This document shows positions 8,485 to 50,862 of a stretch of DNA of 64,000 nt, piece after piece (position 1 is the stretch's first letter; every line of letters starts with the position of its first letter). The notes beneath the pieces were generated by a model, which was not told where the DNA came from, did no database searches, and was given only the letters and a program-made list of their open reading frames with translations. Both the position numbers and the translations under genes were made by a program. The stretch is taken from positions 1,116,001 to 1,180,000 of the forward strand of contig NC_017770.1 in assembly GCF_000242635.2 (NCBI RefSeq), given 5' to 3'. The DNA comes from Solitalea canadensis DSM 3403 (GTDB lineage Bacteria; Bacteroidota; Bacteroidia; Sphingobacteriales; Sphingobacteriaceae).

Positions 8485-9561
8485 ATGAAAAGATTGATTT
8501 TAATTCTTACATTATTTAGCTTAATAAGCAGTGTCTCTGCCCAATTAACAAAAGTAGAAGGGTTTATTGATTCGTTGACAAAGGAGAATAGCTTCAGTGG
8601 AACTATTCTTATTGAACAAAAGTTAAAAGCAGTGTATCGTAAAAGTTTTGGGTATGCTGACCTCCCTTTTAAAGTACTTAATACACCTGATACCAGGTAT
8701 AAAATAGCCTCCATCACCAAAGCTTTTACTGCAGTTATGATCTTGCAATTGTATGAGCAAGGCAAGATAGATCTGGAAAAACCGATTAACACCTATTTAA
8801 CCAACTACAAGGGAATGGGAGGTTCTAGCGTAACAGTAAAACAGTTACTCAACATGACTTCGGGCATGCGAAATATGGATGATGGATTGACGCTTGAATC
8901 AGCTTTACAGCAAGGAATGCCACAATATCAAAAGCCCTATACAACGGATAAACTGTTGGCAAAGTTTTGCAGTGATACTTTAGTAAATCAGCCAGGTAAA
9001 ACCTTCGACTATAACAATGCAGATTACATTATACTGGGAAAGATAATTGAGACTGTAAGCGGTAAAACATACGAACAGGTATTAAGCGAAAAGATCATTG
9101 AACCTTTGCAATTAACTAACTCAGGTTTATTATCGCAAGAGAAAGTGATCGACAGGCTGGCAAATACTTATTTTCAGCGTGATGATTCAAAAGTACTTAC
9201 GAATGACCTGCCTGTGTATATCAATAATTGGTATGCTTCGGGTGCTATGTATTCAACAGTGGATGACGTTTTAAAATTTACTAATGCTTTGTTCAATGGT
9301 AAGTTATTAAAGCAGGAAACACTGAATAAAATGATTGTTTCGGGGCCTGGTGAATATGGATATGGCGTTTGGGTGTATAAAGATTATGAAATCAACTCCA
9401 AAATGTTCACGATCATTAAAAGACCTGGCTCTATTATGGGTGCTCAGGCTATGTTGTTTCATATACTTGAAGATAACTCGACAATTATCATTTTAAGTAA
9501 TACGGACAAAGTCGGTCTGGATGGATTTGCAGCAGTGATTGCTCAACAAATTATCAAATAA
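8485..9561 (+). CDS. Secreted serine hydrolase, class C beta-lactamase fold
   Basis: A 358-residue exported protein (signal peptide 1-20, ending SVSAQ) of the beta-lactamase/penicillin-binding-protein-like serine hydrolase group. The catalytic SxxK is Ser76-Ile-Thr-Lys79, and the YxN motif is Tyr176-Asn-Asn178. The third motif region reads KRPGSIMGAQAM rather than a clear HTG or KTG. Related enzymes act as D-aminopeptidases, esterases or peptidoglycan hydrolases; the substrate cannot be assigned and antibiotic resistance should not be assumed. It stands alone, downstream of the duplicated block and upstream of two decayed genes. Confidence 0.85.
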   Translation: MKRLILILTLFSLISSVSAQLTKVEGFIDSLTKENSFSGTILIEQKLKAVYRKSFGYADLPFKVLNTPDTRYKIASITKAFTAVMILQLYEQGKIDLEKPINTYLTNYKGMGGSSVTVKQLLNMTSGMRNMDDGLTLESALQQGMPQYQKPYTTDKLLAKFCSDTLVNQPGKTFDYNNADYIILGKIIETVSGKTYEQVLSEKIIEPLQLTNSGLLSQEKVIDRLANTYFQRDDSKVLTNDLPVYINNWYASGAMYSTVDDVLKFTNALFNGKLLKQETLNKMIVSGPGEYGYGVWVYKDYEINSKMFTIIKRPGSIMGAQAMLFHILEDNSTIIILSNTDKVGLDGFAAVIAQQIIK

Positions 9562-9563
9562 TA

Positions 9564-9806
9564 ATGATACCTTATCCATTAGGCGAGTACAATTCCAAAA
9601 TAGATTTATCTGAACAGGGCAGAACAATACGGGACTTGTGCAGGTAAATTATGAATTTGAGTCAATCCGAAATCTAGTTCAGGAATTAGATGTTTTAGAA
9701 GAAGAGTCTATCGTTATAACTTACAAAGGTCATTTTAGCGGGCTATTGGGATTCCTATTACGGTTTTCATTGGACGAGAGAACAAGAAATTGAATTTTGG
9801 GAGTAG
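9564..9806 (+). pseudogene. Decayed small gene with at least two frameshifts
   Basis: Protein-like sequence continues across three frames. An ATG at 9564 opens MIPYPLGEYNSKIDLSEQGR. A second frame then carries NLVQELDVLEEESIVITYKG, and a third frame ends GYWDSYYGFHWTREQEIEFW before the stop at 9804. Joined, these give a plausible protein of about 80 residues, so this is read as one gene broken by indels near 9635 and 9750. No family is recognised; the style (WD-rich, small, acidic) is like immunity-type proteins. Confidence 0.55.
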
Positions 9807-9838
9807 TTCGGCCGAAAAATGCTAATTCGGCCGTCGCT

Positions 9839-10151
9839 ATGCTAACCCTTGCTGATTCGTATCGTGTGCATCAGGTTAAAACATTAATTGAGGTTATCGA
9901 TTTATATTTCCAGAAGATTGAAGTTAATTCCGAACATTATTATTCGCTGCAACCGGATGATATTGAGAGCTTATTAAGTAACCCCGACTTAAAGATCAGG
10001 ATCATGAAAGCCGAACTTGATACTCACGAGCAAAAATGGGGGAAGGGAAGATTATGAAGAAGAGTATCCTTATTTAATCCAACGCTGCAAAGGAGACGAG
10101 GAGTTAATTAGTTATGTTAATAATCGTTTTGAAGCAATTCTTAATAAGTAA
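9839..10151 (+). pseudogene. Small gene frameshifted at a G-run
   Basis: From the ATG at 9839 the frame encodes a charged helical protein up to DTHEQKWG, then meets a stop at 10055. Shifting frame at the GGGGG run near 10037-10041 restores a long continuation (EDYEEEYPYLIQRCKG, then ISYVNNRFEAILNK) to a stop at 10149. One extra G explains this, either as a true mutation or an assembly error in a homopolymer. The product would be about 103 residues, soluble, with no recognised family. A TTG start at 9797 is possible but overlaps the preceding relic. Confidence 0.6.
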
Positions 10152-35206: not shown

Positions 35207-37507
35207 ATGAATAAAAAATTATTGTTTCTTATGGCGCTGTGTTGTCCGCTATTTCTTTCGGCACAGCAGAAAGTTAATATTATTCCGAAGCCAGTAAACC
35301 TGGTAATTCAGGAAGGGAACTTTAGTATTGATGGCAACACTTCTGTCAGATTTGATAAAAAGAATTCGGAGTTACAGGCTATAGCAAAGTTTTTAGCTGC
35401 TTATATCAATACAGTTTCGGGCAATGAACTGAGAATGAATAATAAGAAAGCTGCAAAAATCATCGACCTTAAAATTGAAAATACGGCCAATATTGGCGAT
35501 GAAGGTTATGTGCTCAATGTATCACCTTCGGCAATAACAATTAGAGCCAATACCAAAGCTGGTATTTTTTATGGTTTGCAATCAATAATACAAACATTAC
35601 CACAAGTTCGTACAAATGCGGCTTTGGTAGTCCCTTGTATGCAGGTAACGGATTATCCGCGTTTTAAATGGCGCGGAATGCACCTGGACGTAAGCCGGCA
35701 TTTTTTCACGCCTGAACTAGTGAAAGAATATATTGATCTGATTGCCCAATACAAGATGAATACTTTTCATTGGCATTTGGTTGATGATCAGGGCTGGCGA
35801 ATTGAGATAAAAAAATACCCTAAACTAACCGAAGTCGGCGCTTGGCGTGTTGACCAAAACGATAAAGCATGGAGCGACAGACCGCAAGCCAAGGCAGGCG
35901 AAAAACCTACTTACGGTGGTTATTATACGCAAGAGCAAATCAAAGATATTATTGCTTACGCCGCTGTCCGTAATGTAACGGTAGTTCCCGAAATTGAAAT
36001 GCCGGGACATGTGGCTTCAGCTGTTGCCTCGTATCCACATTTAAGTTGTACACAACAGGCCCAGCTACCAATGACAGGTGGTAATTACACCAATATGTCG
36101 TCTAACTATTGTGCAGGAAATGATTCTGTGTTTACTTTTTTAGAAGATGTGCTTACTGAAGTGGTTGACTTATTTCCTTCAAAATACATTCATATTGGCG
36201 GAGATGAATTAGATAAAGCACCGTGGAAAAAATGCGCACGTTGTCAGGCCAGAATCAAAACAGAGAACCTGAAAAATGAAGAAGAGCTGCAAAGCTATTT
36301 TATTGCACGGATAGAGAAATTTCTGATCAGTAAAAACAGAAAGATGATTGGCTGGGATGAAATATTGGAAGGAGGTTTGGCTCCGGAAGCAACAGTGATG
36401 AGCTGGCGTGGTGAAGCTGGCGGAATCGAAGCAGCTAAAATGAAACATGATGTGATCATGACTCCCGGCAACCCTGTGTATTTTGATCATTACCAGGCAG
36501 GTCCTGAAGGTGAACCGCAAGCTTTTGGGGGTTTTAATACACTAAAAAGGGTGTATAGTTATGAGCCAATCCCTAAGGAGCTAAATGCCGAAGAAGCGAA
36601 ATTTGTGTTAGGAGCACAAGCCAATTTATGGACTGAGTCAATTGTTACAGCTGAACATGTTGAATACATGATTTTGCCACGTATGCCAGCATTGGCAGAG
36701 GTGGTATGGTCGCCTAAAGAAAGCAGAAACTGGGGTGATTTTAATGAACGCATTCAGTCTCATTTTAAGGGCTACGGACAAAAAGGACTGCGTTATTGTC
36801 CGGGTAATTTTACTATTGATATCAAACCATCATCGCAAAACGGAAAATTGAGTATAGCTCTTTCAACCGAAGCTTATAAGGGTGAAATTTATTATACAAC
36901 CGATGGTTCCAACCCGACTATCAGCAGCATTAATTATGCAGGTCCTATTAGTATCGACTCTTCGGTAATTATAAAGGCTACAACCGTTTTAAATGGAAAT
37001 GTTATGGGTGTTAAACCTGCTGAACAGGCTTTTATAATGCATAAAGCTATAGGAAGAGATGTTGTTTATTCGAATCCGATAAGTACCTATTATGTAGCGG
37101 ATGGTCCGAATTCATTAACCGATGGTGTACTGGGAACTAAAACGGTAAATAAGTACTGGCATGGCATAAGCGGAAAGGATCTGGTTGCCACTATTGATTT
37201 AGGTGCAGAACAGGAGATCAAAAGTATAAGCCTTGGCTGTTTGCAAAATTACTCCGATTGGATTTTTCTTCCTCAGGAAGTAAAGTTTGAAGTATCTGCA
37301 GATGGAAAGAATTTTAAAGAAGCAAAGATGGTTGTCAATAACGTATCTGTTTATGAAAAATCAACTATCAAGAGTTTCAAGGCTGAGTTTTTGAAACAAA
37401 AAGTTAAATATGTACGTGTAAGTGCCAAAAATGGAGTATGTCCGCCAAATCATCCCGGAGCAGGCAAGCCTGCCTGGATTTTTGCCGATGAGCTGGTGGT
37501 GGAATAA
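35207..37507 (+). CDS. Secreted beta-N-acetylhexosaminidase, GH20
   Basis: A 766-residue exported enzyme (signal peptide 1-20, ending FLSAQ). In order: GH20b N-terminal domain about 22-145; GH20 catalytic barrel about 150-500 with WRGMHLDVSRHFF, FHWHLVDDQGWRIEIKKYP and the catalytic pair Asp333-Glu334 in HIGGDE; a chitobiase C-terminal-like beta domain about 535-620 (IYYTTDGSNPTISS); and an F5/8 type C (discoidin-like) sugar-binding domain about 630-766. It removes terminal GlcNAc or GalNAc from chitin fragments or host/plant glycans in the periplasm. It stands alone with no SusCD pair next to it. Confidence 0.95.
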   Translation: MNKKLLFLMALCCPLFLSAQQKVNIIPKPVNLVIQEGNFSIDGNTSVRFDKKNSELQAIAKFLAAYINTVSGNELRMNNKKAAKIIDLKIENTANIGDEGYVLNVSPSAITIRANTKAGIFYGLQSIIQTLPQVRTNAALVVPCMQVTDYPRFKWRGMHLDVSRHFFTPELVKEYIDLIAQYKMNTFHWHLVDDQGWRIEIKKYPKLTEVGAWRVDQNDKAWSDRPQAKAGEKPTYGGYYTQEQIKDIIAYAAVRNVTVVPEIEMPGHVASAVASYPHLSCTQQAQLPMTGGNYTNMSSNYCAGNDSVFTFLEDVLTEVVDLFPSKYIHIGGDELDKAPWKKCARCQARIKTENLKNEEELQSYFIARIEKFLISKNRKMIGWDEILEGGLAPEATVMSWRGEAGGIEAAKMKHDVIMTPGNPVYFDHYQAGPEGEPQAFGGFNTLKRVYSYEPIPKELNAEEAKFVLGAQANLWTESIVTAEHVEYMILPRMPALAEVVWSPKESRNWGDFNERIQSHFKGYGQKGLRYCPGNFTIDIKPSSQNGKLSIALSTEAYKGEIYYTTDGSNPTISSINYAGPISIDSSVIIKATTVLNGNVMGVKPAEQAFIMHKAIGRDVVYSNPISTYYVADGPNSLTDGVLGTKTVNKYWHGISGKDLVATIDLGAEQEIKSISLGCLQNYSDWIFLPQEVKFEVSADGKNFKEAKMVVNNVSVYEKSTIKSFKAEFLKQKVKYVRVSAKNGVCPPNHPGAGKPAWIFADELVVE

Positions 37508-37555: not shown

Positions 37556-37613
37556 TTTCCTTCCTCTTCTTTCAGTTGCTAATTTCTCAAATTATCATAT
37601 TCTATAGCTCCTG

Positions 37614-38516
37614 CTACTTTAGCTTATCATCCAACATTTCCAATAAGTAAGGCAATGCCGGATTGTTATTTCCCTTTTTCCAAACAGCATACAATTCCGT
37701 TTGTTGAGGCACATTGGTTAATTCGATAAATTTAATGTTTGGATTACCTCCTGTAGCAAGTGAGGTTGGAATGATCGAGAGTCCCATGCCATTTTCTACC
37801 AACCTGAAAATGGTTGGAGCGTGAATTGAACGATGCGCTATTTTGGGAGTAAAGCCCTGATCGGCACAAATGTTAATGATTTGCTGATAGTAAAGGTGGC
37901 TCTGATCATTCGGGAAAAGTATAAACGGTTCGTCTTTCAACTGTCCTACATGTTTAAACGTCTCCTTAGTTAAAGGATGACTATTAGGCAAAACCAATGA
38001 AAAGGTTTCTTTAAAAACACATTTAATCTGCAATTCAGGGGCAACATAATTAGAACGCATAAAGCCCAGGTCAATCGATTCATTTTGCAATGCAATTATC
38101 TGCTCACGGTTATTCAGTTCATCCAATTGAAATTTAATATTCGGACAATCTTTGTGAAATCGTTTTATAAGACCAGGCAGGATAGATTCCATGGCTGATG
38201 CAACGAAGCCAATGCCGATCTGCCCTGTATTACCGTCCTTCCATAACTTAAGTCGGGTAACCGCCGCATCAACTTTATTTATCACCTGAACCACATCGCT
38301 GTAAAATAAAACACCGGCATCTGTTAATGCCACCCTCTTATTTGTCCTGTCAAATAAGGACGTTTTTAAGATTTGCTCTAATTGTTTGATCTGCTGGCTT
38401 AGGGCTGATTGTGAAATAAACAGGATCTCTGATGCTTTCCTATAGTGTAACTCTTCGGCCAATACCTTAAAATAATTAAGATGACGCAGTTCTATTTGAT
38501 TAGCTATACTTATCAT
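37614..38516 (-). CDS. LysR-family transcriptional regulator
   Basis: A 300-residue regulator. The N-terminal winged helix-turn-helix is at about 10-68 (LRHLNYFKVLAEELHYRKAS, ISQSALSQQIKQLEQILKTS). The C-terminal substrate-binding domain is at about 95-295, with GQIGIGFVASAMESILPGLI and FILFPNDQSHLYYQ. It is transcribed away from the lysine-degradation genes with 71 bases between the two starts, and a LysR-type operator lies in that gap. By the usual LysR rule it most likely controls those genes, with lysine or a pathway intermediate as inducer. That link is inferred from position. Confidence 0.9.
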   Translation of the reverse strand: MISIANQIELRHLNYFKVLAEELHYRKASEILFISQSALSQQIKQLEQILKTSLFDRTNKRVALTDAGVLFYSDVVQVINKVDAAVTRLKLWKDGNTGQIGIGFVASAMESILPGLIKRFHKDCPNIKFQLDELNNREQIIALQNESIDLGFMRSNYVAPELQIKCVFKETFSLVLPNSHPLTKETFKHVGQLKDEPFILFPNDQSHLYYQQIINICADQGFTPKIAHRSIHAPTIFRLVENGMGLSIIPTSLATGGNPNIKFIELTNVPQQTELYAVWKKGNNNPALPYLLEMLDDKLK

Positions 38517-38536
38517 TTATTAATAAATATGAATTG

Positions 38537-38549
38537 TTGCTAATGGCAA
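38537..38549. promoter_or_regulatory. Candidate LysR operator TTGC-N5-GCAA
   Basis: TTGCTAATGGCAA is a T-N11-A motif with perfect TTGC/GCAA arms, the classic LysR recognition form. It lies in the middle of the 71-base gap between the divergent LysR and dehydrogenase starts. One site can thus give autoregulation and activation. Confidence 0.55.
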
Positions 38550-38587
38550 ATCTAAAGATATTTGAGTTGTTATACTTAAAAAATACG

Positions 38588-39649
38588 ATGATTAATAAAG
38601 TTCTCACCCTTGGTTTAGGGAAAGTAGGTACGTTAGTAGGTTCACTACTCAGCAAGCAGTTTGAGGTAACCGGCATGGATAAACAAGCTCCTCATTATCA
38701 GTACGATCTTCCCTTCAATGTTGTTTTGGGCGATGTTGCAGATATTCCTTTTATGGAAAAAACGATAAAAGAATATGATGCAGTTGTTTCGGCCCTTCCT
38801 TATTTTCTAAACAAGCCAATTGCAAAGATCGCCCATGATCTGGGAAAGCATTATTTTGATTTAACTGAAGATGTTGAAACCACTGAATATATCATGAGTC
38901 TGAGTGAAACCTCAACTGCTGTTCTGGCACCTCAATGCGGACTGGCACCGGGCATTATTGGTATTATCGGGGCACATCTTTCCAAAGACTTTGATAAACT
39001 CAGATCGATTGAAATGCGTGTAGGGGCATTGCCGCAATATCCAAACGGGGAGTTGGGGTATTCATTTACATGGTCAGCGGCAGGAGTAGTTAACGAATAT
39101 ATTAATGATGCAGAAGCCATTCATCATGGAAAGCGTAAGAAAGTGACTTCATTACAAGGTAAAGAATTGATCACCATCAACGGATCAACCTATGAAGCTT
39201 TTTATACTTCAGGCGGTTTGGGTACCATGTGCGAAACCTATGAAGGCCGGGTAGATAAGCTGGATTATAAGACCATCCGCTATCCCGGACATTGCGACCT
39301 GATGAACTTTCTGATCAATGAGCTGCATTTAAAAAATGACAAACAACATCTGGAAGATATGTTAAAGAGTGCCAAGCCACCGGTTAAGGAGGATGTTGTA
39401 TTAGTATATGCAGTTGCAGAAGGATGGAAAAATAACGAGATGCACAGAAATGAATTCTGTAAGTCGTATACACCCATCGAGATTGATGGAAATGACTGGA
39501 GGGCTATTTCATGGACAACTGCAGCCAGTTTAGTGGCCGTGGTAGAAATGGTGGCAGCAGGTAAACTCCCGTCAAAAGGATTTATCAAACAGGAAGAAAT
39601 TGCTTTTGATGCATTATTGAATACACAAACCGGTAGTTTATTTAATTAA
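38588..39649 (+). CDS. Saccharopine dehydrogenase-family enzyme, possibly L-lysine 6-dehydrogenase
   Basis: 353 residues from the ATG at 38588, chosen because the Rossmann motif GLGKVG (9-14) must lie near the start; open codons continue back to 38534. After the NAD(P)-binding half comes the saccharopine dehydrogenase C-terminal fold: LAPQCGLAPGIIGIIGAHLS, then FYTSGGLGTM and YKTIRYPGHCD. Two functions are possible. One is saccharopine to aminoadipate semialdehyde plus glutamate. The other is direct oxidation of lysine by lysine 6-dehydrogenase, which is of similar length and, as I remember it, shares the TSGG...YKTIRY pattern. Either product is the substrate of the aldehyde dehydrogenase in the same operon. 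No lysine-ketoglutarate reductase gene is adjacent, which favours the second. Confidence 0.85.
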   Translation: MINKVLTLGLGKVGTLVGSLLSKQFEVTGMDKQAPHYQYDLPFNVVLGDVADIPFMEKTIKEYDAVVSALPYFLNKPIAKIAHDLGKHYFDLTEDVETTEYIMSLSETSTAVLAPQCGLAPGIIGIIGAHLSKDFDKLRSIEMRVGALPQYPNGELGYSFTWSAAGVVNEYINDAEAIHHGKRKKVTSLQGKELITINGSTYEAFYTSGGLGTMCETYEGRVDKLDYKTIRYPGHCDLMNFLINELHLKNDKQHLEDMLKSAKPPVKEDVVLVYAVAEGWKNNEMHRNEFCKSYTPIEIDGNDWRAISWTTAASLVAVVEMVAAGKLPSKGFIKQEEIAFDALLNTQTGSLFN

Positions 39650-39655
39650 TCCGAA

Positions 39656-40561
39656 ATGAAATTTAACAAAGACACAACTTTGGATATTTTTTTAAATATT
39701 CTCTTTGAACGCTATCGCGATAAAGTTCCGGCTGTAAATCAAATAACTAATGCTTTAACAGAACGTGGTGTTGTTAATTCACAGCAAGAAATTATCAACG
39801 ATCATATTGCATTCCGCACTTTAGGTGTACCGCATTTGGGAATCAATTCATTTGAAAAGATTTTTCTATATCATGGTTATCAGAAAAGAGATAATTACTT
39901 TTTTGAAGGGAAGAAGCTGAATGCTTATTGGTATGCCCCTCCTTCAGCAGAATATCCAAGAATTTTTATGAGCGAACTGACTGTGGATAAACTTTCGGAA
40001 AATGCTCAAAATATTATTAAGAAATATACCCAGCATATTACTGCTGATCCGGTTGACTCACTTGATTTAGACAATGGACAGCAAATTGGTGAGTTTCTTC
40101 ACCAGTCGTTATGGCAAGTTCCGACAAAAGAAGAATACTTAGCCCTGCTGGAAGAAAACGAATATGCAGCCTGGGTGATTTATAACCGTTATTACCTGAA
40201 CCATTATACCATCAGTGTTCATGCTTTGAAAGAAGGTTATAATACGCTCGAGGATTTCAACTCGTTTATTGAAAGTTTGGGCATCAGGCTAAATGACGAG
40301 GGTGGAAAAATTAAGGTGAGTAAGGATGGTCTTTTGCGCCAAAGCAGTTCTGTGGCCGAAATGCATGAAGCTGTCTTTGCAGGCGGTGAAACCTTAAGCA
40401 TTGCCAGCAGTTATGTAGAGTTTGCTGAGCGATTAGTATTGCCTGAGTTCAGGCATCTTACCGCGGAAGAGATTATGACCCAACACAGGAGAGAAGGGTT
40501 TGAGACCAGCAATGCAGATAAAATTTTTGAAAGTACTTACACCAGTCAAACACAATCTTGA
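39656..40561 (+). CDS. hglS: 2-oxoadipate dioxygenase/decarboxylase (DUF1338, HglS-like)
   Basis: A 301-residue protein of the DUF1338 family. The characterised member, HglS (YdcJ) of Pseudomonas putida, is a non-haem iron enzyme converting 2-oxoadipate to D-2-hydroxyglutarate with loss of CO2. Family-type blocks here are [38 protein letters not shown] and [16 protein letters not shown]. His50 and a His of the HYTISVH block are likely iron ligands, with a Glu nearer the C-terminus. It lies 6 bases after the dehydrogenase gene and 11 bases before the aldehyde dehydrogenase gene, so it is in one operon. Its length is shorter than the roughly 450-residue bacterial YdcJ type, closer to the compact form. 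Confidence 0.85.
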
Positions 40562-40572
40562 TTTTTTACTTC

Positions 40573-42099
40573 ATGGACATTAATAACATATTAACTCAAT
40601 TAGGGATTACCGAAAATAATCCGGGAACTTCTACCGGAACAGCATGGTTTGGATCAGGCTCGACAATTTGTTCTTCCTCACCAGTGGATGGAAAGCACAT
40701 TGCATCTGTACAAACTACTTCAACTGAAGAATACGAAAAAGTACTGCAGACAGCTGAACAAGCATTTCAGTTCTGGCGCAATGTACCGGCTCCTAAAAGG
40801 GGCGAAGTCGTTCGTCAGCTAGGAGAGGCTTTAAGAGAAAAAAAAGAATGCCTTGGAGCCCTGGTCTCTTATGAAATGGGCAAAAGTCTGCAGGAAGGCT
40901 TGGGAGAGGTTCAGGAAATGATTGATATCTGCGACTTTGCCGTGGGATTGTCGCGACAATTATATGGTTTAACCATGCATTCAGAAAGACCGGGCCATCG
41001 AATGTATGAACAATGGCATCCGCTTGGTATTGTAGGGATCATCTCTGCCTTTAACTTTCCGGTTGCAGTATGGAGCTGGAATGCGGCTTTAGCATTGATT
41101 TGTGGTAATGTATGTCTTTGGAAGCCTTCTTCGAAAACGCCGCTTTGTGCGGTTGCCTGTCAGCATATTATTGCAGAAGTGTTAAAAGCAAATAATTTAC
41201 CTGAAGGTATTAGTAGCCTTATCTCAGGAAATCCGGTTGGCAACCTGATCAATAACGATAAACGTATTCCACTGGTTTCCTTCACCGGTTCAACACGTAT
41301 CGGTCGCGAAGTTTCCTCGGTTGTTGCCCGACGCTTTGGGAAAACCATCCTTGAACTGGGCGGCAATAATGCGATCATTATTTCCAAAGAAGCCGACCTT
41401 GACATGTCCATTATTGGTGCAGTGTTCGGTGCGGTAGGTACTGCCGGACAGCGTTGTACTTCAACTCGTCGTTTGATTATCCACGAGGATGTGTACGATA
41501 ATTTTAAAGATAAGCTGGTAAAGGCTTATGCTCAGCTTCGGATTGGCAATCCATTGGATCAGCGCAATCATGTGGGTCCGTTGATTGACACGATGGCTGT
41601 TGATATGTATTTAAGCGCCATTGAAAAAGGAAAAACAGAAGGTGCGCGTTTTATTGTGGATGGCAGCGTCTTAAATGGTTCGGAGCATGCATCAGGTTGC
41701 TATGTGAAACCATGCATTGCCGAGGTAGAAAATCATTTTGAAATAGTACAGGAAGAAACCTTTGCACCAATCCTGTACCTGATTAAATATAAAACCTTAG
41801 ATGAGGCTGTTCAATTGCAGAATGCTGTACCGCAAGGACTGTCATCGGCAATTATGACCTTGAATATGCGTGAAGCAGAACAATTCTTATCGGCCAACGG
41901 GTCAGATTGTGGCATAGCGAATGTGAACATCGGTACTTCCGGGGCTGAAATTGGTGGCGCTTTTGGTGGGGAGAAAGAAACCGGAGGTGGCAGGGAAAGC
42001 GGTTCTGATGCCTGGAAGGCTTATATGCGCAGACAAACTAATACCATCAATTACGGAACAACCCTTCCTTTAGCACAGGGAATAAAGTTTGACTTTTAA
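40573..42099 (+). CDS. Aldehyde dehydrogenase, aminoadipate-semialdehyde type (ALDH7/AmaB-like)
   Basis: 508 residues from the ATG at 40573; a TTG five codons earlier overlaps the hglS stop and is less likely. Catalytic Cys295 lies in [12 protein letters not shown] and general base Glu261 in LELGGNNA. The NAD-binding loop [11 protein letters not shown] and the ALDH7-like ending [20 protein letters not shown], then [14 protein letters not shown], are present. It would oxidise alpha-aminoadipate semialdehyde to 2-aminoadipate. The ALDH7 character (the [21 protein letters not shown] and YMRRQT blocks) and the neighbours make this assignment stronger than for a generic aldehyde dehydrogenase. Confidence 0.9.
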
Positions 42100-42165
42100 C
42101 ATTGCTGGAATAGCTTGTTAGATGCCAAAAATAAAGTAGAAAATTAGTTTTTTTGTACCAACCTT

Positions 42166-42216
42166 TTTCAGGTTTTGTCTTAGGGAGTCCTGACGACAAA
42201 ACCTGAAATATTTTTG
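42166..42216 (+). terminator. Strong hairpin between the aldehyde dehydrogenase and FAD-oxidase genes
   Basis: A perfect 14-bp stem, TTTCAGGTTTTGTC (42166-42179) with GACAAAACCTGAAA (42195-42208), has a 15-base loop and is followed by TATTTTTG. It reads as a terminator or attenuator, so the last gene may be transcribed less than the first three. The TATTTTTG tail also looks like a -7 box, but the ATG is only 12 bases further, too close for a normal leader. Confidence 0.7.
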
Positions 42217-42228
42217 ACTCACTGGTAA

Positions 42229-45150
42229 ATGAAAGAAAGAATCAGACAATTAGCCGGACAATTGGATGGAGAATGCCATACTGATGAAGCGATGCGCATT
42301 ATATACGCAACAGATGCTTCGGCTTATGCTGAAATGCCATTGGCGGTAACCACTCCCAGGTCTGTTGCAGATATTAAAAAACTGATTGCTTTCGCAACCG
42401 AAGAAGGTACTTCACTTATTCCGAGAACTGCCGGAACTTCTCTTGCAGGGCAGGTGGTTGGAAATGGAATTATTGTAGACGTATCTAAACACTTTAATCA
42501 AATTCTGGAACTGAATATTGAAGAGCAATGGGTGCGTGTGCAACCCGGAGTGGTAAGAGATGAGTTAAATCAATTCTTAAAACCGTACGGCCTTTTTTTC
42601 GGTCCTGAAACTTCTACAGCCAACCGGGCAATGATTGGGGGTATGGTGGGTAACAATTCCTGTGGATCAAATTCGGTAGTTTATGGTAGTACACGCGAAC
42701 ACACGCTGGAAATAAAAGCCATACTCAGTGATGAATCTGAAGTGGAGTTTAAAACATTGAATTTTGACGAGTTTATAGAAAAGTGCTCCGGATCAACTTT
42801 GGAGGCCAATATTTATAAATCCATTAGAAGCCAGTTAAGCAATTACGAAAATCAGGCTGAGATTCGGAAAGAGTTTCCGAAGAAAACTGTCGAAAGAAGA
42901 AATACAGGCTATGCGATTGATCTTTTACTGGAAACAGCACCTTTTACGATGGGAGCAGAAGATTTCAATTTCTGCAAACTGATTGCAGGCTCTGAAGGAA
43001 CATTAGCCTTTATCACTGAAATAAAACTGAATCTGGTACCACTTCCTCCTAAAGAATCAGGATTGCTTTGCGTACATTTTCATTCTATTGACGAAGCACT
43101 ACGGGCAAACCTGATTGCATTGAAGTATAAGCCCAGTGCCAGTGAACTGATCGATCATTATATTTTAGAATGTACTAAAGATAATAGAGAGCAAAAGCAA
43201 AACCGGTTTTTTGTTGAAGGTGACCCGGCAGCTATTTTGGTAATTGAATTTGCAAGAAGTACCAGGGAGGAAGTTGTCGCTATTACTGAACTGGTAAAGG
43301 CAGAAATGCTGGCAGAAGGATTGGGTTATCATTTCCCTGTATTGTTTGGTAAGGATACCCCTAAAATATGGTCGCTTCGAAAAGCAGGTTTGGGATTATT
43401 AAGTAATCTGCCTGGTGATGAAAAGGCGGTTCCGGTCATTGAAGACACTGCCGTTGATGTTAATGATCTGCCGGCATATATCCGTGACTTTAACGATATT
43501 CTTAAAAAACATGGATTGTATTCGGTGCATTATGCACATGCCGGGTCAGGTGAAATCCATTTGCGCCCGATCATTAATTTAAAAACCGTTGAAGGTAATC
43601 GTCTGTTCAGAGTAATTGCTGAAGAAATAGCCGCACTTGTTAAAAAGTACAATGGCTCATTAAGTGGAGAGCACGGTGATGGAAGATTGCGCGGTGAGTT
43701 TATTGAGCAAATGATAGGAAAGAAGAATTACCAATTGCTCAAAGAAGTTAAATATATATGGGATCCACGGAACATTTTTAATCCAGGCAAAATTGTGGAT
43801 ACACCACCAATGGATACTATGCTCAGGTATAAGCCAGGGCAACAGACGCCGGCATTTCAAACCTTTTTCCGCTATTATAACCAGGATGTATTGCAACATG
43901 TGGAGCAGTGTAACGGCTCTGGCGACTGTCGCAAGTCGCATCTGGCGGGAGGTACCATGTGTCCCTCGTACATGGCAACCCGCAATGAAAAGGATACCAC
44001 CAGGGCGAGAGCTAATGTTTTAAGGACATTTCTTACCAATTCTGAACAACTCAACCGATTCGATCATAAGGAAATCAAGGAAGTGATGGATTTATGCTTG
44101 AGCTGTAAAGGTTGCAAATCTGAATGTCCATCAAATGTGGATATGGCTAAATTAAAAGCCGAATTTTTGCAGCATTATTATGATGCGAATGGCGTTCCTT
44201 TCAGGTCGCGACTAATTGCCAATTTTAGTAAAATAGCAAAATTAGGCGCATTAGTTCCCGCAGCTTACAATTTTTTTATGACTAATAAGGTGGTAAGCAA
44301 AGTTGTTAAAAAAGCGACCGGCTTCGCAATAGAACGATCGATGCCAACGCTCTATCATACTACCTTAAGAAGTTGGTTTAATAATCGATCTCATTCTGTT
44401 AGTGATCAAAATGCGGACAAGAAAAAGGTTTATTTTTTCTGCGATGAGTTTACCAATTATCAGGATACCGAAATAGGTATTAAAGCGATACTGTTGCTAG
44501 AGCGCTTAGGATTTGAGGTGATCATACCTAAACACGAAGAGAGTGGTAGGGCTCAGCTCTCCAAAGGTTTGTTGCGTGATGCCAGAAAAAACGCCCAACA
44601 AAATGTTAACCTGTTAAAGAATTTAATAACAGCTGATACACCTTTAGTCGGTGTTGAACCTTCAGCTATTCTCACTTTTCGTGATGAATATGTAGACTTG
44701 GTTGATGATGAGCAATTGGCAGACGCTAAAAAATTGGCGGCTAATGCTTATCTAATTGACGAATTCTTGGCTCAGCAAATTAAGAAAGGGAATATTCACA
44801 AAGAGCAGTTCACCAAAGAGAGCAAGCAGATTAAACTTCACGGTCATTGTCAGCAAAAGGCATGGTCGGCACTGTCAGCCACTCAGGAATTATTGTCTTT
44901 TCCGGAGCATTATCAGGTCGAAACCATCCCTTCGGGTTGTTGTGGTATGGCTGGGTCCTTTGGTTATGAAAAAGAACATTATGAAATTTCAATGCAGATT
45001 GGTGAACTGGTTTTATTGCCAACTATCAGAAATCAGCCTGATCATGTAATTATTGCTGCTCCCGGAACAAGTTGCAGGCATCAGATTAAAGACGGAACGG
45101 GTCGTAAAGCCTTACACCCGGTTGAAGTGTTGTATGATGCGCTTGTCTGA
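42229..45150 (+). CDS. FAD/iron-sulfur D-2-hydroxyacid dehydrogenase (YdiJ-like D-2-hydroxyglutarate dehydrogenase)
   Basis: 973 residues in three parts. An FAD-binding PCMH domain at about 35-180 has IPRTAGTSLAGQVVGNG and GMVGNNSCGSNSVVYGSTRE. An FAD-oxidase C-terminal domain at about 265-520 has HAGSGEIHLRP and SGEHGDGRLRGEF. The third part is a 4Fe-4S ferredoxin-like segment (NGSGDCRKS..GTMCPSY near 560-580; CLSCKGCKSECPSN near 624-637) plus a C-terminal cysteine-rich CCG region (HGHCQQKAW, PSGCCGMAGSFGYE). This fused build matches E. coli and Pseudomonas YdiJ, which oxidises D-2-hydroxyglutarate to 2-oxoglutarate. D-2-hydroxyglutarate is the product of HglS encoded two genes upstream, so the context supports this over D-lactate. 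Confidence 0.9.
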   Translation: MKERIRQLAGQLDGECHTDEAMRIIYATDASAYAEMPLAVTTPRSVADIKKLIAFATEEGTSLIPRTAGTSLAGQVVGNGIIVDVSKHFNQILELNIEEQWVRVQPGVVRDELNQFLKPYGLFFGPETSTANRAMIGGMVGNNSCGSNSVVYGSTREHTLEIKAILSDESEVEFKTLNFDEFIEKCSGSTLEANIYKSIRSQLSNYENQAEIRKEFPKKTVERRNTGYAIDLLLETAPFTMGAEDFNFCKLIAGSEGTLAFITEIKLNLVPLPPKESGLLCVHFHSIDEALRANLIALKYKPSASELIDHYILECTKDNREQKQNRFFVEGDPAAILVIEFARSTREEVVAITELVKAEMLAEGLGYHFPVLFGKDTPKIWSLRKAGLGLLSNLPGDEKAVPVIEDTAVDVNDLPAYIRDFNDILKKHGLYSVHYAHAGSGEIHLRPIINLKTVEGNRLFRVIAEEIAALVKKYNGSLSGEHGDGRLRGEFIEQMIGKKNYQLLKEVKYIWDPRNIFNPGKIVDTPPMDTMLRYKPGQQTPAFQTFFRYYNQDVLQHVEQCNGSGDCRKSHLAGGTMCPSYMATRNEKDTTRARANVLRTFLTNSEQLNRFDHKEIKEVMDLCLSCKGCKSECPSNVDMAKLKAEFLQHYYDANGVPFRSRLIANFSKIAKLGALVPAAYNFFMTNKVVSKVVKKATGFAIERSMPTLYHTTLRSWFNNRSHSVSDQNADKKKVYFFCDEFTNYQDTEIGIKAILLLERLGFEVIIPKHEESGRAQLSKGLLRDARKNAQQNVNLLKNLITADTPLVGVEPSAILTFRDEYVDLVDDEQLADAKKLAANAYLIDEFLAQQIKKGNIHKEQFTKESKQIKLHGHCQQKAWSALSATQELLSFPEHYQVETIPSGCCGMAGSFGYEKEHYEISMQIGELVLLPTIRNQPDHVIIAAPGTSCRHQIKDGTGRKALHPVEVLYDALV

Positions 45151-45485
45151 TGGAATTGCTTTTTTGCTTTTTCTCTTAATAGGGTATGCTTAGCTATTGA
45201 CAGTAGTTAGGAAAGGCAAAATCATACTCATAATTCATATCGCTCTAACAGACCCCTAACCCCTAAAGGAGGATTCATATCGCTTTTATATGCTAAGAGT
45301 AAGAACTTTATTTCAACAGTATGTTTCCCCTTTAGGGGTTAGGGTTATTTTTCTCTATGCTCTGTTTTTTTCTAAGCCTTTACTCTTAATAGTGGTGGCT
45401 TAGGCTCTGGTTCATGAAGCTCATAAGCGTATATAGATGACTTTATTCATTCAACCTGTTAAAAGGGTAGTAATACTAACGGATA
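45151..45485. other. Intergenic region with palindromic repeat copy 2
   Basis: 335 bases between the convergent FAD-oxidase and sigma factor genes. It holds the repeat element listed at 45252. No separate terminator is obvious for either gene, so the repeat's hairpins may serve as one. No gene is seen. Confidence 0.55.
45252..45346. repeat. Palindromic repeat element, copy 2
   Basis: The left arm, ACCCCTAACCCCTAAAGG (45252-45269), runs on through a shared ATTCATATCGC (45273-45283). The right arm at 45324-45346 contains CCCCTTTAGGGGTTAGGG. Both arms and the CATATCGC spacer start match copy 1 near 20.8 kb, although the middle differs. The left arm carries an A inside its GGGG block, so pairing is imperfect compared with copy 1. 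Confidence 0.8.
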
Positions 45486-47554: not shown

Positions 47555-50500
47555 ATGTATGAAATAAAATTTAATAGAGGGGAAACTCATCTATTAGGGA
47601 TTCTCTTGCCCTTTAAGTTTCTGAAAATAATGAAATTAACTGTTTTGATCATGCTTTGTTCGCTGTTGGTCAGCGCACGTGGCCTGAGCCAGATTACCAT
47701 TAAACAAAAAAACGCATCCTTTCAAACTATTGTCCGTGAAATTGAGGCACAAACTGATTATGTTTTCTTCTACAAGAATGTATTTAGTGATGTTTCTATT
47801 ACGGTAGATTTCAAGAATGTGTCAATTGAATATGCTCTGAAGACTTGTTTTGGGAATAAGCCGATTGAGTATAAAATTATTGACAAAACAGTGGTGATTA
47901 CTGAACCAAAGGCATATAAAGGATCGAAAATAAACTCTTCCTTAATATCGCAGCTTAATGAAGTACGCGGAAAAGTGTCTGATGTGAAGGGAGAACCGTT
48001 GCCGGGTGTAAGTGTGAGTATTAAGGGGACTAAGAGGGGAACGGTTACGGATGAAAATGGGAACTATTCATTAAAGCTTCAAAGTGATGACAAAACACTA
48101 GTTTTTACCTTCATTGGTATGATGCCCAAAGAAGTAAATATTGGGCAGTCGGAGACAATTAATGTCACTATGGAAGAATCGGCTATTTCTACGAAAGAGG
48201 TGGTAGTGACGGGATTCCATACTAAGCGCCAATCTAGTTTTACTGGTTCAGCCATTACTATCACCGGTGAGCAGCTAAAAGCAATTTCGCCAACAAACCT
48301 GGTTCAGGCCTTGAGTATGTCAACCCCTGGATTGGCTATGGTGGAGGAGAAGACTGCTGGTTCAAATCCTAATCGCCTTCCTGAAATCCTCGTCAGAGGT
48401 GTAACCTCTTTCAGTAATGATAACCAAACAGTTAATCAGCCATTAATTGTTAGAGACGGTACTATTATTAGTATGCAAGATCTGTACGACATGAACATCA
48501 ATGAGATTGCAACGGTTACCGTACTTAAAGATGCATCTGCAGCTGCACTTTATGGAGCAAGGGCAGCAAATGGAGTAATCATCATTGAACGAAATAAGAT
48601 TACGGATGGTAAAATGAAAATTAACTATAACGTAACGAGTAGCATACAGTCTCCTGATTTTAGTGATTACAATATTCTTAATTCGGCTGATAAACTGGAA
48701 TATGAACGATTAGCCGGTTTATATACCGGTACTGAAAATTCTTTACAGTATCAACTGGATTCGCTATACAACATTCGGTTTAAAGAGGTTAGCAGAGGGG
48801 TTAATACAGACTGGATGTCTAAACCAGCCAGGATTGGTTACTCATTAGATCAGTCTTTACGTCTTTCTGGGGGAGCGGGCAGTACCCGGTATGAATTAAA
48901 TGGTCGTTATGGCTCGGTAGAAGGTGTAATGAAAGGTGATTTCAGGAAACGTTACGGATTAGGTTTTGTTTTGGAATATTACATGCCAAATGGATTAACT
49001 TTTTCCAATCGGGCAAGCTTCTCACAAGTAAACGCTAAGGCCTCTCCGTATGGAAGTTTCTCTACCTATACAGAAGTTAATCCTTATGACAGAGCTTATG
49101 ACCAGTTTGGTGAATTAATCAAAACGCTTTCATGGGATCAGGAAAATCCACTTTATGAGGCGCAGCTGGGTTCTTTTAATAAAGATATGACCCAAGCTTT
49201 CAGTAATGATTTTGATGCGCGCTGGGCTTTGTCAAATCAATGGAGAGTTACGTCTCACTGGAATCTGACCCTTAACAATGGTAGCACTGAATTGTATAAT
49301 TCACCGCTTTCGGGCGCTTTTAAAGATGAAATAGATCCGGCTAAAAGAGGGTTGATGTCCATCACTAATAATAAGGGTATTAATTATTCGGGAAACCTGG
49401 TGGTATCATATAATAAGTTATTTGGAAATGGAAGCTTAGTATCTGCGAATGTAGGAGCAAATTTGAATCATACAGATCTGAAGGGAGGATCCTTTAGAGG
49501 TATGGGCTTTTATTCGGATGCGCTGAGGTCTATCAACTTCGCATCCTCTTACCCAAGCGGAGAGAGACCCGGTGGTTATCAGGATTTGAGTGCTGATGTT
49601 GGAGGTTTCCTGAATTTGAACTATATGTATAAAAACCGCTTGACGGTGTTTACCAGGTTTCAGGTTCTTCAAAGTTTGGTGCCAATAACCGATATGGACA
49701 TTTTTGGTCTACTGGCTTGGGATGGAATCTGCATAATGAAGAAATGTTCAAAAACAAACGGATAGATATTCTTAAACTTCGTGGAGGTATGGGGTATACC
49801 GGAAAGGTAAACTTCGCTTCTTATCAGGCTTTAACTACCTATCGCTACAGTAACGATTTGGATTATCTAAATGGAATTGGTGCAGTGCCCATCACTATCG
49901 GTAATCCGGATTTAAAGTGGGAGCGAACCATGAACTATAATGTGGGCCTCGATGTGAGTTTATTTAATCGCTGGTTTAATCTTACAGTAGATGTTTACAA
50001 GCGCAAAACAACAGACTTACTGATCGACAAAACCATTGCTCCTTCGGCAGGTGTAACTTCCGGAAAAGATAACCTTGGGGAAATGGAGAATAAGGGGATC
50101 GAGCTACACATGGATTCTTACCTGATCAGGAATAACAAATTTACCTGGCAGGGGGGATTGAATATTGCTCATAATAGCAATAAAATCCTGAAAATCAGTA
50201 GCGCTTTGCAAAGGCAGAATGATATAAATAATGCAGTATTATCTGTTGAGCCGTTGCCTCAGTTTCAGGAAGGTGAATCAACCACAGCACTGAAAGTTGT
50301 GCCTTCTGCAGGTATCGATCCTGCTACCGGAAAAGAGGTCTTTATTAAATTAAATGGCGATAGAACATTTGTATATGATCCGAATGATAAAATCGTAGTA
50401 GGTGATTTATTGCCAAAGGCATCAGGTACTTTTTATACAATTGCCAGTTATAAGAGAATTACAGCAGGCGCTTATTTCAACTTTAGCTTTGGTCAGTACA

Positions 50501-50862
50501 TTTACAATACCACGCGCGCAACCAAGGTAGAAGGCTCTGATCCAAGGTTTAATGCAGATTATAGGGTCTTTAATGATCGCTGGAAAACCCCGGGTGATAT
50601 AGTGCTTTATAGAAACATTGCTGACCAGTCTGTTCCTTATCAAACTTCACGTTTCGTTGAAAAAGAAAATACTGTTACACTTTCGAGGTTGAATATTTCC
50701 TATGAGTTGGACAGAAACTTTGTTAAAAGATTGGGCATGAGCAAAGTATCGCTTGGCCTAAGTGTTAACGACCTGTTCAGGGCCTCTACCGTAAGAATTG
50801 AGCGGGGAACATCCTACCTGTACAGCCGCGGAATGGATCTTAATCTTAATGTAATGTTTTAA
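47555..50862 (+). pseudogene. SusC-like transporter with STN domain, broken by a frameshift
   Basis: The first frame (47555-49765) gives a signal sequence, an STN domain (about 48-117), a carboxypeptidase-regulatory-like domain (about 138-200), a plug (LIVRDGTIISMQDL, TVLKDASAAALYGARAANG) and the first part of the barrel. It then derails after NRLTVFTRFQ. The second frame carries the family sequence from GSSKFGANNRYGHFWSTGLG (49663 on) to the barrel end at 50862. The break is at about 49655-49663, and one missing base explains it. Joined, the protein would be about 1100 residues, normal for SusC. No slippery site is seen. It is either a true loss of function or an assembly error. An internal ATG at 47630 is an alternative start. 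Confidence 0.85.

Follow-up and report, generated by a model that had tools for sequence, protein, structure and literature searches.

The window analysed here is a stretch of 64,000 nucleotides (positions 1,116,001 to 1,180,000 of contig NC_017770.1) from Solitalea canadensis DSM 3403, whose genome is a single contig of 5.2 Mb. Between positions 37,614 and 45,150 it holds a gene for a LysR-type regulator and, divergent from it, four genes that probably form a LysR-controlled operon for the aerobic use of L-lysine, leading from lysine to 2-oxoglutarate through the DUF1338 enzyme HglS; we assign the functions from homology and context. An earlier sequence-only reading of this DNA had described a LysR gene divergent from four other genes, all closely spaced, and all five were found:

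37614-38516, minus strand: LysR-type regulator (PF03466 and PF00126 matches), divergent from the operon
38517-38587, no strand: putative divergent promoter/operator region; the 17 sequences aligned share 13 invariant columns
38588-39649, plus strand: L-lysine 6-dehydrogenase-like enzyme (LysDH; PF16653, Sacchrp_dh_C, and PF03435, Sacchrp_dh_NADP), fold nearest to structure 3abi
39656-40561, plus strand: HglS, putative 2-oxoadipate dioxygenase/decarboxylase of the plant (FLO7) type (PF07063, HGLS/DUF1338; match to rice structure 6w1k)
40573-42099, plus strand: L-piperidine-6-carboxylate (P6C)/2-aminoadipate semialdehyde dehydrogenase (AASADH) of the ALDH7 type (Aldedh; NF050084 passed)
42229-45150, plus strand: YdiJ-like FAD and 4Fe-4S dehydrogenase (PF02913, FAD-oxidase_C; PF01565, FAD_binding_4; Fer4)

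The open reading frames (ORFs) of the lysine dehydrogenase-like enzyme and of the aldehyde dehydrogenase extend over 38534-39649 and 40558-42099 (both plus strand), with likely starts at ATG 38588 and ATG 40573. Assuming these starts, the gaps between the four plus-strand genes are 6, 11, and 129 bp, and 71 bp separate the LysR gene from the first of them.

How often does this gene order recur? The survey covered the best 80 of at least 561 confirmed HglS relatives in the genome collection, a sample that leans to near relatives; neighbours less than 500 bp apart were counted as one run, and contig ends make the run counts lower bounds. The best HglS matches come from bacterium A37T11, Mucilaginibacter, and Pedobacter. 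The full order, LysR/LysDH-HglS-AASADH-YdiJ, is present in identical order and orientation at 8 of the 80 loci, belonging to six Pedobacter genomes (two strains labelled P. cryoconitis, P. hiemivivus, P. steynii, sp. ok626, and sp. PAMC26386) and to two metagenome-assembled genomes labelled Sphingobacterium and Bergeyella. Parts of it are found at 55 more loci, as HglS-YdiJ (33), LysR/HglS (9), HglS-AASADH-YdiJ (4), LysDH-HglS (3), LysDH-HglS-AASADH (2), and, once each, HglS-AASADH, LysR/LysDH-HglS-AASADH, LysR/HglS-AASADH-YdiJ, and LysR/HglS-YdiJ. Counted by partner, a YdiJ-like gene shares the run of HglS at 47 of 80 loci (Pedobacter, Mucilaginibacter, and Sphingobacterium among them), AASADH at 17, and LysDH at 14; a LysR gene diverges from HglS or LysDH at 20. 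This recurrence shows that the five-gene arrangement is more than chance.

In the route that we propose, the lysine 6-dehydrogenase-like enzyme would convert L-lysine to allysine/P6C, as its fold, relatives, and context suggest, and the ALDH7-type enzyme, a strong family match, would carry allysine/P6C on to 2-aminoadipate. 2-Oxoadipate would then be supplied by an aminotransferase whose gene lies outside the cluster and whose specificity is probably broad. HglS, here of the plant type and, by its strong family and active-site match, an Fe(II)/O2 enzyme, would decarboxylate and hydroxylate 2-oxoadipate to D-2-hydroxyglutarate, and the FAD/Fe-S protein, judged mainly by context, would yield 2-oxoglutarate, its electrons probably passing to the respiratory chain. 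The idea first put forward from the letters of this DNA, a near-complete, LysR-linked cluster in which HglS and a YdiJ-like dehydrogenase finish the way from lysine to 2-oxoglutarate, is supported by families and context. If true, this would be a compact, O2-dependent bacterial route taking lysine directly to 2-oxoglutarate. It would suggest a function for genes of many Bacteroidota that are at present labelled 'saccharopine dehydrogenase', 'DUF1338', and 'FAD-binding oxidoreductase', and would offer a simple genetic system for testing plant-type HglS.

The window HglS scores 223 bits against PF07063, passing the curated cut-off of 25. At an E value of 0.001, a sequence search of the PDB returned rice FLO7 (6w1k, 211 bits) and 3lho (116 bits) only; P. 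putida HglS was not among the matches. The HHE metal triad (H50, H183, E255) and the 2-oxoadipate arginine R54 are kept in all 36 aligned rows, which include the window protein and rice FLO7. According to PMC7286885, HglS, E. coli YdcJ, FLO7, and AT1G07040 turn 2-oxoadipate into 2-hydroxyglutarate, and family members retaining these residues are predicted to act on 2-oxoadipate. The window enzyme is predicted to convert 2-oxoadipate to D-2-hydroxyglutarate.

Two sub-types of HglS were separated in a sample of 395 genomes of the phylum, a close one (at least 57% identity to the window protein) in 13 and a distant one (37-43%) in 10, counts in which proteins too far from the window HglS would escape the search. 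Rice FLO7 is 45% identical to the window protein; its identity to the close rows is 43-48%, against 34-38% for the distant ones. In the tree a 100/100 branch joins it to the close bacterial type. Its own branch, however, is very long, which drew a program warning, and it is the single plant row, so we do not claim a bacterial origin of FLO7. By these comparisons the window HglS is of the plant FLO7 sub-type and more like the rice enzyme than the Pseudomonas one. A LysDH of at least 60% identity occurs in 5 of the 395 genomes, and 4 of these 5 are among the 13 with close HglS (hypergeometric 3.5e-6, the genomes not being independent). In the remaining three of those four genomes the two genes are linked twice (G300, G162) and lie on different contigs once (G371). 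Close-type HglS (57-58%) was also seen on two Deinococcus plasmids (L178 8995-9918 and L179 8995-9915), between an FAD oxidoreductase and an aldehyde dehydrogenase; we did not count this as the same gene pair, the D. proteolyticus aldehyde dehydrogenase scoring 361 bits against the P6C dehydrogenase cut-off of 730. In a Dyadobacter genome (L126) the gene just upstream of HglS belongs to the ProC family (9150-9950); the neighbour cluster to which it was assigned has four members.

For the entry enzyme, the sequence-only reading had left two choices, a saccharopine or a lysine dehydrogenase, and the evidence favours the second. The protein has 354 aa, while the solved saccharopine dehydrogenases listed have 435-449 aa. 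Its best match in a sequence search of solved structures is PH1688 (3abi; 79 bits, ORF residues 22-282), a Pyrococcus L-lysine dehydrogenase by the title of the structure and likewise so named in PMC10413350. A model built on an alignment of 13 sequences, the window protein included, reached a mean pLDDT of 85.5 and a pTM of 0.87. Foldseek placed 3abi at the top (E 2.9e-23, TM 0.82), and VIA-align 2 ranked it first as well (Z 34.3, root-mean-square deviation 2.6, 333 residues), ahead of carboxyspermidine dehydrogenases (Z at most 30.4) and saccharopine reductase (1ff9, at most 30.3). In fold and size the enzyme is therefore nearest to the L-lysine 6-dehydrogenase family, the fold alone being no proof of activity. 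The run His-Glu-Glu, given in the same source as the active-site run of carboxyspermidine dehydrogenase (PMC10413350), occurs nowhere in it. Residues Y228, T230, and R232 of its Y-K-T-I-R run match Y238, T240, and R242 of the Geobacillus lysine dehydrogenase, which with H181 make up the modelled lysine-binding set, in spacing only and with H181 unplaced; the T and R of the run are present too in Magnaporthe saccharopine reductase.

Four alphaproteobacterial relatives are 41-53% identical to the entry enzyme. In Ruegeria sp. AD91A, a 41% identical dehydrogenase gene is followed by an aldehyde dehydrogenase gene whose product is 59% identical to ours. The Ruegeria pair differs from the window: the 10 features annotated in its surroundings include no HglS, in a gene table that is incomplete and lists one FAD-dependent oxidoreductase. 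In the re-annotation of R. pomeroyi the adjacent genes SPO0234 and SPO0235 received the updated functions lysdh and aasadh, and experimental verification is stated for several genes of the two lysine pathways (PMC4334477); the AD91A gene may well be the orthologue of SPO0234. Fold, relatives, and context together make an L-lysine 6-dehydrogenase, converting lysine to allysine/P6C, the best reading of the entry enzyme.

It is very unlikely that the first gene codes instead for a saccharopine dehydrogenase whose substrate would come from a lysine-ketoglutarate reductase (LKR) encoded elsewhere. The two enzymes do share a superfamily, the Pfam domain names derive from saccharopine dehydrogenase, and 1ff9 stands close behind in the fold list at Z 30.3, but the protein is the shorter one in the comparison above and 3abi leads by about 4 Z. 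The rest of the genome also speaks against this route. The entry enzyme is its sole PF16653 protein. Of its three PF05222 proteins, one is an alanine dehydrogenase, at 528.3 bits against a cut-off of 391.85. The second resembles alanine dehydrogenase but stays under that cut-off with 310.7 bits, and alanine dehydrogenases make up all ten of its best solved relatives; the third is PntA-like (376.9 bits vs 383). There is no LKR among these three, an LKR without a PF05222 domain not having been sought, so a saccharopine route would miss its first enzyme unless this were of the kind not sought.

The aldehyde dehydrogenase scores 832.2 bits against NF050084 (L-piperidine-6-carboxylate dehydrogenase), over the equivalog cut-off of 730. 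Its 16 best solved relatives lie at 556-620 bits, with the next group at 245 bits; 12 of the 16 go by the names antiquitin, ALDH7A1, or AASADH, and another is called Pcd.

Several findings weigh against the proposed lysine operon. At 17 of the 80 loci HglS has none of the other four genes in its run (one of them, L095, is counted here though a YdiJ-like gene was seen in its wider neighbourhood). The rest of the fold family trails 3abi by only some 4 Z, and a shared fold does not show function. NF050084 is passed in 196 of the 395 phylum genomes, and S. canadensis itself has a second P6C dehydrogenase copy (G000:C1:4910906-4912327); with so common a family and a second copy, the family name of the aldehyde dehydrogenase is in itself no proof of lysine use.

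To the same side belongs the aminotransferase that should act on 2-aminoadipate, which was identified neither in the cluster nor, by NF049976, in the genome. Its absence from the cluster had already been pointed out, and the search of the whole genome left that as it was: the best score against NF049976 (2-aminoadipate transaminase) was 225.6 bits with a cut-off of 650, which none of the 14 control genomes passes either. Among 22 PF00155 matches in the genome, 7 were run against NCBIfam, and none of these exceeded the 2-aminoadipate cut-off. A broad-specificity aminotransferase likely fills the missing step. It is unlikely that the main role of the cluster is to turn lysine into 2-aminoadipate, for instance as an osmolyte, with HglS and the YdiJ-like enzyme only draining the surplus. 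The lack of an aminotransferase in the cluster would suit such a role, and R. pomeroyi is said to favour its lysine dehydrogenase pathway when salt is high and to gain the osmolyte aminoadipate from it (PMC4334477). However, the 33 of 80 runs that hold HglS and the YdiJ-like gene without LysDH or AASADH mean that the drain is the part more often kept in this sample.

The genome encodes a lysine 6-aminotransferase outside the cluster (TIGR03251, 651.4 bits, cut-off 520.8; G000:C1:2905230-2906528), so that the cluster would add a second way of reaching the same intermediate. The lat-pcd route of Flavobacterium lutescens reportedly also runs from lysine through P6C to 2-aminoadipate, with an aminotransferase as its entry. 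Genome G002 has both of its genes side by side; it differs from the window in this aminotransferase entry in place of a dehydrogenase. As the usual partner of HglS the lysine 6-aminotransferase was rejected: it is over the cut-off in 5 of 13 close-HglS genomes, 5 of 10 distant-HglS genomes, and 201 of 395 phylum genomes, and is thus not enriched alongside HglS, a further point on the negative side. So is the finding that 5 of the 13 close-HglS genomes lack both a close LysDH and a lysine 6-aminotransferase that exceeds the cut-off, which means that HglS must serve other supplies of 2-oxoadipate too, or that other entries exist. With the 22 aminotransferase-like proteins of the genome as queries (at least 90 bits), class III aminotransferases were found within 10 kb of HglS at 5 of 80 loci. 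We do not take these neighbours for lysine 6-aminotransferases: at L072, the one locus checked, one of the two passes the cut-off for (R)-1-hydroxy-2-aminoethylphosphonate ammonia-lyase.

The last enzyme completes the list of objections. The YdiJ-like label held as far as the top NCBIfam match, which is YdiJ (NF049975), while membership of the family did not: the score of 664 bits misses the equivalog cut-off of 1350 by far. Among solved structures it comes closest to a glycolate oxidase and to D-lactate dehydrogenases (131-122 bits), and human D-2-hydroxyglutarate dehydrogenase scores just 43.5 bits. With the cut-off missed and the human enzyme a weak match, its assignment as a probable D-2-hydroxyglutarate dehydrogenase leans mainly on gene context. 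Might it then be an unrelated dehydrogenase, such as one for D-lactate, that merely adjoins the operon? These solved relatives, the missed cut-off, and the 129 bp gap would agree with that. Yet YdiJ is still the top family, the gene accompanies HglS in more than half of the runs surveyed, and D-2-hydroxyglutarate would need a sink, all of which leaves the idea most improbable.

In the region 38517-38587, 13 columns are invariant across 17 aligned sequences, namely the window and 16 of the 20 LysR-adjacent loci (L088, L090, L130, and L145 were excluded for start-codon or ORF-call trouble); at the LysR end this conservation is partly coding. The region contains a TATTTG-like element, which we take to resemble the Bacteroidota -7 element. 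Intergenic conservation and the divergent LysR gene support control of the operon by the LysR protein, possibly in response to lysine or an intermediate. A consensus inverted repeat, TTATCAT ... ATGATAA, is not claimed as an operator; one half overlaps the LysR start codon, and the other half is degenerate in the window (TGGCAAA).

All parts of this operon are of known kinds. The GapMind lysine rules may already combine these steps in silico. In the literature searched, outside which key papers lie, we found neither an operon that combines a lysine 6-dehydrogenase-like entry with plant-type HglS and a YdiJ-like exit nor a description of a Bacteroidota cluster of this make-up. The HglS route of P. 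putida is fed from D-lysine via pipecolate, its genes are scattered, and the D-2-hydroxyglutarate formed is then turned into 2-oxoglutarate. This D-lysine pathway resembles the window in its HHE/Arg DUF1338 enzyme, which takes 2-oxoadipate to D-2-hydroxyglutarate (PMC7286885), and differs in the HglS itself, as the PDB matches above indicate. Plant lysine catabolism (FLO7/AT1G07040) shares the HglS sub-type and the AASADH step with the window, but plants enter through LKR/saccharopine dehydrogenase and saccharopine (PMC7253579), whereas the window has a lysine 6-dehydrogenase-like enzyme in a single bacterial operon. A broader view, which we regard as doubtful, is that of a self-contained Bacteroidota operon from lysine to 2-oxoglutarate that bypasses glutaryl-CoA with a plant-type HglS, the plant chloroplast enzyme perhaps sharing its ancestry with this Bacteroidota/Deinococcota clade and not with the P. 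putida type. If true, the operon would show in what prokaryotic surroundings the plant enzyme arose.

Scans of the window gave no Rfam or tRNA match. A plasmid origin was rejected, the region 37600-45200 having no near megablast match in the plasmid collection. On the LysR side of the cluster, at a distance of about 3.5 kb, there is a Mutator-family transposase gene (PF00872; 32880-34100, plus strand), and a GH20 beta-hexosaminidase gene (35207-37507, plus strand) adjoins the 3′ end of the LysR gene. Beyond the other end, a SusC/TonB-receptor-like gene, named by eye (47555-50862, plus strand), spans the overlapping frames 47555-49765 and 49717-50862, split as if by a frameshift or a sequencing error.

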